Source: an uncultured Alphaproteobacteria bacterium (lineage in GTDB: Bacteria > Pseudomonadota > Alphaproteobacteria > HIMB59). Taken from it: a DNA stretch of 64,000 nucleotides. Shown piece by piece: positions 31,661 through 33,896 of this stretch. The translations under genes and the position numbers were made by a program. Below the pieces are notes generated by a model, which saw nothing but the letters and a program-made list of their open reading frames with translations, searched no databases and was not told the origin of the DNA. The DNA lies in assembly GCA_902591315.1 (NCBI GenBank), contig CACJAI010000001.1, positions 62,001-126,000 of the forward strand, written 5' to 3'. How positions within the stretch are numbered: the first letter of the stretch is position 1; the number at the start of each line of letters is the position of its first letter.

Positions 31661-31852
31661 ATGAAAACTATTTTTAAAATTGGTTCCAAAAGTCATACAC
31701 TTAAATATCAAAGAAAAATGTCAGAGGGTGAAGTAAAAAAAATGAAATCCTTTGTTACATCAAAAGGCTTAAAGATAGAAAAAACAGGTAAGTTTAAGAT
31801 AATTGAAGTTAGTGATCATAAAGACTCTAGGACATACAAAATTAATTTATAA
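31661..31852 (+). CDS. Small hypothetical protein (63 aa)
   Basis: Intact ORF, 17 bp before the left island boundary. Confidence 0.4.
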   Translation: MKTIFKIGSKSHTLKYQRKMSEGEVKKMKSFVTSKGLKIEKTGKFKIIEVSDHKDSRTYKINL

Positions 31853-31869
31853 AAATTACAAATTTAATG

Positions 31870-31885
31870 AAAGGGGCGTTCTGTT
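31870..31885. repeat. Direct repeat copy 1 (putative att site)
   Basis: AAAGGGGCGTTCTGTT identical to 33594-33609. Confidence 0.7.
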
Positions 31886-31932
31886 TCCTAACACATCGTC
31901 CCTAAGTCGCAGTATATAACAACTTTTTAAAA

Positions 31933-31954
31933 CTGTATGCAAAAACTGTATGCA
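31933..31954 (+). repeat. CTGTATGCA iterons, left cluster (2 copies: 31933-31941, 31946-31954)
   Basis: Exact 9-mer repeats. Confidence 0.75.
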
Positions 31955-32062
31955 CTAATTTCTCGTTTTTGATGAATTTGCGACTTCTGTTCGCAAAAGT
32001 ATACGGATAGGAAGACTTCAAAGTGGAATAATTGACTTATTTGAGTTAAGAATTATTAAATA

Positions 32063-32995
32063 ATGATTAAAAATTATTTCAGATTAATCTTAGGAAGAAA
32101 ACACACTCATTTTGAAGAGTGTTATAAAAATAATTATATTGGTGTTAGTTTTGGAATAGATAAAGATTTATCTAATGACCTTCCTGAGAATTGGAGAGAT
32201 TTTAATAAAAAATATATTCCATTATATTTAGAAAAAAACCCTGATAAATCTAAAGTGACCGCAGGTCTTGCTTGTGGTGCAATACATACTGTATCTAAAT
32301 CAATCAATATTGGTGATCATGTCATTTGTCCTGATGGCAGTGGTAAATATTACGTTGGCGTAGTTAAGAGTGAATATGTTTATAAACCAGATAGACCTCT
32401 ATTTCATTGTAGAGAAGTAGAATGGTTGAGAACATCTATTAATCGTTCTGATATGTCACAAGAGTTACAAAATTCTACTGGTTCAATTGGCACAATTTCA
32501 AACATCACAAAATATTCTAATGAATTACAAAACTTTATCTCTGATAATAATCAAAATGATGTTTTAACATCAATTGATAAAAATATAGAGGATCCATCAA
32601 TGTTTGCTCTTGAGCGTCATTTGGAAGATTTCTTAATTGCAAACTGGAAACAAACAGAAATTGCTCAAAATTATGACATTTATGAAGATGATGAATTATT
32701 TGGTCAGCAATTTCCTACTGATACAGGTCCAATTGATATACTTGCGATTAGTAAAGATAAAAAAGAACTTTTAGTTATTGAATTAAAAAAAGGTAGAGCA
32801 AGTGACAGTGTTGTTGGTCAAATACAAAGATACATGGGATATATTAAAAGTGAATTTCTGGAATCTGATCAAAAAGTTCGAGGTATAATTATTGCTTTAG
32901 AAGAAGACTTAAAACTAAAGAGAGCATTGTCAGTAACCAACGATATTGAGTTCTATAGATATAAAATTAATTTTGAATTAATAAATTCGAAATGA
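32063..32995 (+). CDS. Putative modification-dependent endonuclease: N-terminal EVE/PUA-like region plus C-terminal PD-(D/E)XK (NucS/DUF91-like) nuclease
   Basis: INIGDHVICPDGSGKYYVGVVKSEYVY…HCREVEWL; FPTDTGPIDILAISKDKKELLVIELKKGRASDSVVGQIQRYMGYIK. Confidence 0.65.
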   Translation: MIKNYFRLILGRKHTHFEECYKNNYIGVSFGIDKDLSNDLPENWRDFNKKYIPLYLEKNPDKSKVTAGLACGAIHTVSKSINIGDHVICPDGSGKYYVGVVKSEYVYKPDRPLFHCREVEWLRTSINRSDMSQELQNSTGSIGTISNITKYSNELQNFISDNNQNDVLTSIDKNIEDPSMFALERHLEDFLIANWKQTEIAQNYDIYEDDELFGQQFPTDTGPIDILAISKDKKELLVIELKKGRASDSVVGQIQRYMGYIKSEFLESDQKVRGIIIALEEDLKLKRALSVTNDIEFYRYKINFELINSK

Positions 32996-33429
32996 AAATC
33001 CTACTCACACTCTTCGTTTTGTTGTATTCGTCTTCGGTGTTTTCAAAAGATGTTGCTTTTGTATATAATTCTTACACATCAGCAGAATGGGTTTATTTTA
33101 CCAAAAATGCATCACCCGCTGCAGAATGGATATATTTTACTAGAAATGCATCACCCGCAGCGAACTGGATTTATGTTACTTCAAATTGTTCTTATGCAGA
33201 CATAGAAGTTGTTACAGGTAGTCCTACTTATGCAGAATGGGTTTATTTTAAAAAAATTGCATCACATGCAGCAGAATGGATATATTTAACTAGAAATGCA
33301 TCACCCGCAGCAGACTGGATTTATGTTACGAATTCTTCATCAAATTCTGATTATACAATTTGTTTTCCAAGTTCTTTTGAATATTCGGAGAAACATATAG
33401 CAGCAATTTATGTTCTATATTTAAAATAG
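32992..33429 (+). CDS. Secreted short-tandem-repeat protein
   Basis: Signal peptide MKILLTLFVLLYSSSVFS then repeats AEWVYFTKNASPA/AEWIYFTRNASPA/ANWIYVTSNCSYAD; overlaps the upstream gene by 4 bp (ATGA). Confidence 0.65.
   Translation: MKILLTLFVLLYSSSVFSKDVAFVYNSYTSAEWVYFTKNASPAAEWIYFTRNASPAANWIYVTSNCSYADIEVVTGSPTYAEWVYFKKIASHAAEWIYLTRNASPAADWIYVTNSSSNSDYTICFPSSFEYSEKHIAAIYVLYLK
33082..33331 (+). repeat. ~100-bp near-identical repeats at 150-bp spacing within the repeat-protein gene
   Basis: GCAGAATGGGTTTATTTTA…GGATTTATGTTAC at 33082 and again at 33232. Confidence 0.85.
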
Positions 33430-33517
33430 AAATTTTTAAAAAGAAAATAAAATGAAAAAACTACTTTAGTTTAACTTTTTATTCTACGTGATTTATCGCC
33501 TAGAATGAAACTTTAGA

Positions 33518-33549
33518 CTGTATGCAAACTGTATGCAAAACTGTATGCA
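33518..33549 (+). repeat. CTGTATGCA iterons, right cluster (3 copies: 33518, 33529, 33541)
   Basis: Exact 9-mer repeats at 11-12 bp spacing. Confidence 0.8.
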
Positions 33550-33593
33550 ACTTGTTTTTCAAAAAGTAAGAGGAAATAAAGGTTAATTAAATA

Positions 33594-33609
33594 AAAGGGG
33601 CGTTCTGTT
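33594..33609. repeat. Direct repeat copy 2 (putative att site, within ssrA terminator hairpin)
   Basis: AAAGGGGCGTTCTGTT identical to 31870-31885. Confidence 0.7.
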
Positions 33610-33850
33610 GCCCGGCCGCCCCAAAGCCGCGCTTACCTAATTAGATTAAGCAGCGAGTGCTAATTCATTATCGTTAGCAATTATTTTAAGTTTCTATGTC
33701 GAAGAAACGCTTACAACGAGCAAAAACTATATCCTTCAGAGCACGTCAAACCTATATCACCCCCATAAAAATTTTTATGGTGGAGGTGTCGGGTACCGCC
33801 CCCGAGTCCGATACACCTATTACATATAGCGTTTATTGCTATAGTTGATA
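33597..33850 (-). ncRNA. ssrA: Circularly permuted two-piece tmRNA (coding piece ~33597-33764, acceptor piece from 33778 to ~33850)
   Basis: Tag ORF GCT AAC GAT AAT GAA TTA GCA CTC GCT GCT TAA = ANDNELALAA* (33646-33678 minus); acceptor GGGGGTG/CACCTCC-A-CCA with G3-U70 pair. The 5' boundary near 33850 is approximate. Confidence 0.93.
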
Positions 33851-33896
33851 AACAACGAAGATAATATAGTCTAATTAATGAATCCTTTAAACACCT

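Follow-up and report, generated by a model that had tools for sequence, protein, structure and literature searches.

A small integrase-less island at ssrA belongs to a large family of iteron-flanked units in tandem arrays

Introduction

Elements known as CIMEs lack integration genes yet retain their att sites, and they build up tandem structures by accretion, as set out in the excerpted text of PMC5704250. Additive flexible islands, in the excerpts of the two sources that describe them, collect cassettes with sizes from 330 bp at tRNA genes with repeated 3' ends (PMC4119200, PMC10872708), the repeats in the fGI-2 of Methylophilaceae being the last 20 nt of tRNA-Lys (PMC10872708). Gene exchange is fast in streamlined ocean bacteria, although visible mobility genes are often missing from their islands, and for HIMB59 the excerpted island study describes tRNA or IS hallmarks as absent and proposes homologous recombination (PMC10734472).

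The DNA analysed here, referred to as the window, is a single stretch of 64 kb from a MAG of 0.99 Mb that is 65% complete. The host order apparently corresponds to the HIMB59-type marine Alphaproteobacteria; the published order, in the same excerpts, likewise contains two families (PMC10734472). The relatives sampled were 51 other genomes in the same genus and a second family of the same order, and the arm and integrase searches took in 162 genomes of the order.

The island at ssrA in the window

A preliminary description of this DNA had proposed a mini-island bounded by ssrA-derived direct repeats, with iteron clusters inside both boundaries and two overlapping ORFs in between, and all of these elements were recovered, as listed here in window coordinates:

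31661..31852, plus strand: left-flank ORF, conserved, 63 aa; in empty-site genomes it stops about 21 bp from ssrA
31870..31885, no strand: distal core repeat at the left end of the unit, exact repeat that copies the ssrA 3' end
31933..31954, plus strand: left-arm iterons, two CTGTATGCA 13 bp apart (31933-31941, 31946-31954)
31977..31997, no strand: left-arm inverted repeat TTTGCGA-N7-TCGCAAA, seen in the sequence, with related sequence in other units of the window's class
32063..32995, plus strand: nuclease ORF, 310-aa PD-(D/E)XK, PADLOC PDC-S02, assigned by profile matches
32992..33429, plus strand: probable secreted protein, 145 aa, with repeats of about 13 aa, assigned from the sequence
33518..33549, plus strand: right-arm iterons, three CTGTATGCA, 11 and 12 bp apart (33518, 33529, 33541)
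33594..33609, no strand: proximal core repeat, the ssrA 3' end
33594..33895, minus strand: ssrA, permuted tmRNA gene, insertion target, tag ANDNELALAA

The 16-bp repeat AAAGGGGCGTTCTGTT occurs in exactly two copies in the 64-kb window (31870-31885 and 33594-33609), and no third site of this kind is present there when up to 3 mismatches are allowed. The right copy coincides with the 3' end of a tmRNA of the permuted alphaproteobacterial type (Rfam RF01849, 33594-33895, minus strand, 195.5 bits). The terminator hairpin that had been claimed at this place is there as letters, the minus strand reading GGGGCG-loop-CGCCCC-TTTT, but it does not stand out as a fold: an isolated 66-nt fold fails to single out the core hairpin (z -0.12), and the hairpin is ordinary because the core is the tmRNA 3' end, conserved in all relatives.

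The iteron CTGTATGCA is found five times in the window, where 0.32 copies are expected, and every copy lies within the unit boundaries; moreover, paired CTGTATGCA in the host genome is confined to this unit, so that the iterons are not a common feature of the genome. Relative to a 12-bp core, the left-arm iterons lie at +60 and +73, positions that are identical in units with another iteron sequence, and the right-arm iterons lie at -79, -68, and -56. The unit (~1.7 kb) retains attL and attR as direct repeats of the target, as CIMEs do, and holds two ORFs that overlap by 4 bp (32063-32995, 32992-33429), neither of which is an integrase, replication, or packaging gene, which sets it apart from PICI-like elements and tycheposons.

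The ssrA sites of close relatives, whose comparison had been suggested as a check, are of both kinds, empty and occupied. Specifically, in nine genomes of the same genus, the 63-aa flank ORF stops some 20-40 bp from ssrA and the insert is absent, and one or more units whose distal core can be recognised are present in at least 15 genomes of the genus, among them that of the window. When the window flanks are joined (left flank plus right core), 313 of 317 columns are identical to the G017 site, with similar results for four other genomes. Left flank, core, and ssrA thus reproduce the relatives' empty site; therefore, the insertion is clean, and the distal core marks the insertion point. The two ORFs are not vertically conserved at this position, the nuclease being present in only 3 of 100 relatives and once inside a different defence island.

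Cargo of the units

The 310-aa nuclease matches the PADLOC profile PDLC04799 (PDC-S02) over its full length (E 2e-145), its C-terminal domain reaches 39.2 bits against Pfam NucS_C (cut-off 24), and the protein aligns with the solved NucS 2vld and bears a GPIDILAI...LLVIELKKG motif. Judged from these sequence matches, it is a probable single-gene phage-defence nuclease of a candidate family. A 76%-identical homologue in G011 resides in an island with type I restriction genes, a neighbourhood that bears on a defence role of the PDC-S02 nuclease only circumstantially.

The 145-aa secreted-looking repeat protein has no significant match in Pfam. Its N-terminal signal-peptide leader (MKTLLTLFVLFFSSSV-like, window 32992-33033) is common to 11 cargo proteins with mostly unrelated mature parts. 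DNA identity is 84% over the 42 nt of the leader but drops to 38% on its upstream side and 47% on its downstream side, a pattern that swapping of leaders or of mature domains among cargo genes might leave. The ten other leader-sharing cargo genes are located in L040, L042, L044, L173, L186, and L189, and many genomic copies of the leader sit in ssrA or tRNA-Gly arrays.

The cargo of the other units includes PDC-S11 proteins, type I restriction genes, HNH and EEP nucleases, PEBP, DUF805, and many small secreted proteins, and nucleases, methyltransferases, and unknowns make up most of the top 25 PHROGs-annotated cargo families. Genes for replication, packaging, or capsid-related functions were not noticed in the units, nor were conjugation genes noticed in the catalogued ones. 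Apart from the units, the G011 island (L082; G011:C1, 1148-12479) also contains a probable metallopeptidase and a 1110-aa nuclease-helicase-like ORF.

A family of units with iterons at both ends

The island of the window is one of many: integrase-less units of its kind form a large family and occur in tandem arrays, which goes beyond what the preliminary description had envisaged. Across the order, 80 units lying between successive ssrA-core copies were catalogued, with a median of about 1.05 kb and up to seven units in tandem; an apparent 11-kb unit in G066, the longest, was excluded as doubtful. The arrays comprise four units in G050 and seven in G075, a member of the second family, and many genomes of the order have additional 12-bp core copies grouped next to ssrA, on its strand. 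The longest ORF runs from the distal core towards ssrA in 59 of 78 units.

In a lambda-type attP, tandem direct sites about one helical turn apart flank the core and are bound by the N-terminal domain of the integrase. The units are bounded by direct core repeats with direct iterons, which form short tandem series just inside both ends at fixed spacing; as in lambda-type arms, several direct sites spaced by 11-13 bp are found at fixed distances on both sides of the core. The layout is consistent with the anatomy of tyrosine-recombinase (lambda-type) arm sites, in which integration would have split the attP into a left and a right arm. The positions of the window class (+60/+73 and -79/-68/-56) recur with other iterons, for example GTGTGTGCA, GTGTCTGCT, CTTCGTAGT, and CTTCGTGT, and other unit classes have other fixed layouts. 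Arms of the window class (class I) occur only at ssrA arrays in the 162 genomes. A conserved sequence beside the right iterons, TCATCGCCTAGAATGAAACTTTAGA, might have been what is left of the start of a lost integrase, but this idea was rejected, as the start codon is not conserved.

The iterons of the left and right ends are matched within the unit in 50 of the 73 units of at least 500 bp, compared with a mean of 10.4 and a maximum of 20 when partners are shuffled (10,000 permutations). The other 23 are without a matched iteron by the criterion used, and the two ends carry different iterons in L042.1, L044.1, L040.6, L063.2, and L063.3; hence, part of the family is chimeric or decayed. Separately, a unit of ~800 bp with one reverse ORF of 173-175 aa lies in or beside the ssrA array of eight genomes of one genus (L152, L175, L177, L178, L180, L182, L184, L190) and is apparently a long-established cassette.

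Integrases and the search for a helper

Among 102 cargo proteins, the listed PHROGs matches include only two to integrases, and these are the halves of one frameshifted gene in G076. The unit that holds it, the only catalogued one with an integrase, also encodes a permease and an ArsR-like regulator. In G102, an intact integrase, 53% identical to the G076 Int, is located directly downstream of ssrA, and the right arm between core and integrase contains tandem GCTTCGGC-type iterons; elements that combine the same core with an integrase, which the preliminary description had recommended looking for, thus exist in relatives. The integrases of the G076/G102 type have an N-terminal part of about 180 aa and go with other iteron types than that of the window.

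The integrase-less unit L174.2 (G104) has both arms and the ACGGCAC iterons in common with the Int unit of G076, but of Int it retains only the first 28 codons or so, at the position that the gene has in the G076 unit; another integrase remnant is found in G138. Since L174.2 and G138 retain such remnants, at least some integrase-less units are integrase-deleted versions of integrase-bearing ones. The loss of integration genes from an integrase-bearing ancestor, typical of CIMEs, is therefore seen in L174.2, G138, and G076, whereas the window unit displays the absence of an integrase only.

No integrase for CTGTATGCA-type arms was recovered from the 162 genomes, from IMG/VR searched by arm/core DNA, or from a DNA search of the phage collection, and a helper could have been missed because the MAG is only 65% complete. 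The host genome has a single PF00589 match, a protein of 286 aa, a length typical of most genomes in the genus, which we infer to be the housekeeping Xer; an IntI-type integrase was not found in this genome at its 65% completeness. Integrases elsewhere in genomes of the same genus were considered as helpers and set aside, the inspected loci being at or near tRNA genes or devoid of the ssrA core. The preliminary reading of the window island, as mobilised in trans or left over from a larger element, gains support, and either version may hold for this copy, no integrase that goes with its iterons having been recovered.

Paired CTGTATGCA was detected in 15 stretches of IMG/VR, none with the ssrA core, and these were taken as chance; the core plus TKCC was detected in 22 stretches, eight of which appear to be phage-borne tmRNA genes (four checked), the rest looking like chance occurrences in GC-rich contigs. 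The viral tmRNA loci are L133, L137, L143, and L151, identified with Rfam, and L139, L140, L145, and L147, identified by sequence only. Among the marine viral contigs that themselves encode a permuted alphaproteobacterial tmRNA with the same core sequence, one measures 242 kb. Neither the conserved inner right arm nor the N-terminal half of the integrase has a match in IMG/VR, and neither the DNA of the window unit nor the secreted protein (32992-33429) has one in the phage collection.

Movement between genomes and other RNA genes

Cargo DNA is shared between the two families, with 90% identity over 494 bp (G011/G083) and 88% over 817 bp (G050/G121). The HisD proteins of the second-family genomes G059 and G083 are 45% and 42% identical to that of the window's genome, and by this yardstick the vertical descent of the two cargo pairs was rejected. 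The identity spans the cargo, with the outer arms outside it, and therefore shows the passage of cargo between arms, not the movement of whole units. One PEBP-like cargo is framed by CTGTATGCA-type arms in one genome, and a second genome has it between GTGTCTGCT arms. In G050 (L063, -2642..-244 from the ssrA core), neighbouring units have exchanged their right arms, CTGTATGCA/GTGTCTGCT being followed by GTGTCTGCT/CTGTATGCA; this would be the expected trace of a single homologous crossover between an integrated and a circular unit, and gene conversion could produce the same outcome.

The same architecture is present at tRNA-Gly and at a Pelagibacter-like ssrA. By tracing the leader sequence to other places, arrays were reached at tRNA-Gly(gcc) in G100 (L244, G100:C61, 1145-3980) and G059 (L245, G059:C5, 1156-7389), where units whose tandem iterons are matched (AGTACATTG; TGTAGCGTA-type) lie between repeats of the tRNA 3' end (TGGAGCGGGCGAAGGGATTC). 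Moreover, in G366, a genome of 1.2 Mb in one contig with a Pelagibacter-like tmRNA that was part of a class-wide sample, a 2302-bp integrase-less unit lies between two ssrA cores and has TGCGG iterons at both ends (L238, 3727-6040).

Proposed mechanism and alternative explanations

The units are probably integrative cassettes that are not autonomous and are moved in trans by integrases with several arm specificities. A lambda-type tyrosine recombinase, provided in trans by a phage or by an element with an integrase, would bind the iterons as arm sites; the unit would be excised as a circle carrying R-arm/core/L-arm, and the circle would insert at a core, either that of ssrA or that of a unit already in place, so that arrays would grow and shrink. 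Different iteron sequences would represent different integrase specificities on one core, and cargo would be swapped between arms, probably via homologous recombination in the conserved inner arm sequence. The matched arms, the presence/absence polymorphism, and the exchange of cargo lead us to favour, with reasonable confidence, a living trans-mobilised system over a graveyard. A broader reading, to which slightly less than even weight is given, is that of an integron-like cassette economy without a resident integrase, in which many iteron-reading integrases would share one RNA-gene core. If so, any passing helper would be able to insert cargo cassettes of its own class in the array, take them out, or pass them on, and the economy would work at several RNA genes (ssrA, tRNA-Gly) across streamlined marine Alphaproteobacteria.

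It is unlikely that the units are instead CIME-like fossils, each a decayed, formerly autonomous ssrA-targeting element that has lost its integrase and is immobile save for homologous recombination or passive carriage in composite elements. Integrase frameshifts and stubs are found where decay would leave them, several units have mismatched arms, the 800-bp unit with the same 175-aa ORF beside ssrA in many genomes of one genus looks like a fixed remnant, and the arm swap at L063 is explicable by homologous crossover; however, drift would erase the intact and matched arms that most units possess, and fossils fit poorly with very similar cargo in different families, with presence/absence polymorphism among close relatives, and with a PEBP-like cargo lodged between either of two arm types.

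The units could also be satellites of temperate phages, in which case a helper phage would use the same core through its integrase and would package or transduce them. This is quite improbable: although the intact Int is about 30% identical to the integrases of temperate phages and anti-phage functions are among the cargo, the units show no noticed genes for replication, packaging, or capsid-related functions, nucleases, methyltransferases, and unknowns prevail among their top 25 PHROGs families, core-bearing phage contigs, where checked, hold a tmRNA gene of their own instead of an attachment site, and the window unit finds no DNA match in the phage collection.

Lastly, iteron clusters are also typical of Rep-dependent origins, and chimeric units show that homologous recombination acts at the locus, but it is very improbable that the iterons are replication or regulatory sites in islands replaced by homologous recombination through their flanks, given their fixed core distances on both sides in units with unrelated cargo, their same placement beside an intact integrase, the lack of any noticed Rep gene, and the exact core duplication and clean empty sites, which point to site-specific recombination.

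Comparison with known systems

Arrays of integrase-less cassettes with arm sites would supply a concrete mechanism for the gene exchange of streamlined ocean bacteria, the iteron would be a readable code that tells which integrase moves which cassette, and reading between ssrA cores would offer a simple mining route to phage-defence and secreted proteins. In the literature as far as excerpted, no description was found of the ssrA locus of the window or of integrase-less mini-cassettes in which one core is combined with many types of arm iterons that match between the ends.

Tycheposons and marine phage satellites, as portrayed in excerpts of PMC10872708 and PMC10803314, resemble the units in being integrated at RNA genes of marine bacteria and in carrying adaptive cargo; unlike the units, tycheposons possess a tyrosine recombinase and measure 4-200 kb, and marine phage satellites possess phage-related machinery. 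Integron cassettes and CALINs share with the units small, promiscuous, arrayed cassettes and a missing recombinase that acts in trans (PMC11389934, in excerpt), whereas here the core is the ssrA 3' end, direct-repeat arms lie inside both ends, and the host's own (incomplete) genome has no IntI. The likeness to a lambda-type attP lies in tandem direct sites, spaced by about one helical turn, to the left and right of the core; the difference is that attP here belongs to elements without an integrase gene and exists in many specificity versions.

Additive flexible genomic islands have in common with the units a tRNA/tmRNA target, 3'-end repeats, and cassettes that vary by strain (PMC4119200 and PMC10872708, in excerpt), and the units indeed occupy the same place across species, vary between strains, and target an RNA gene. 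Conversely, the excerpted accounts of flexible islands (PMC4119200, PMC10872708) make no mention of arm iterons, matching ends, stubs of integrases, or relatives with an integrase at the same core. CIMEs are similar in the missing integration genes, the retained attL and attR, and the tandem structures formed by repeated integration at one core (PMC5704250, in excerpt). In contrast to CIMEs, the units are about 1 kb and mostly contain one to three genes, display many end-matched arm types on one core, carry no noticed conjugation gene that would hint at ICE/IME ancestry, and are spread order-wide, with cargo moving between families. Measured against these sources in their excerpted form, att-flanked integrase-less elements, tandem accretion, and cassettes at RNA genes are known, and the many end-matched iteron types on one core are new.
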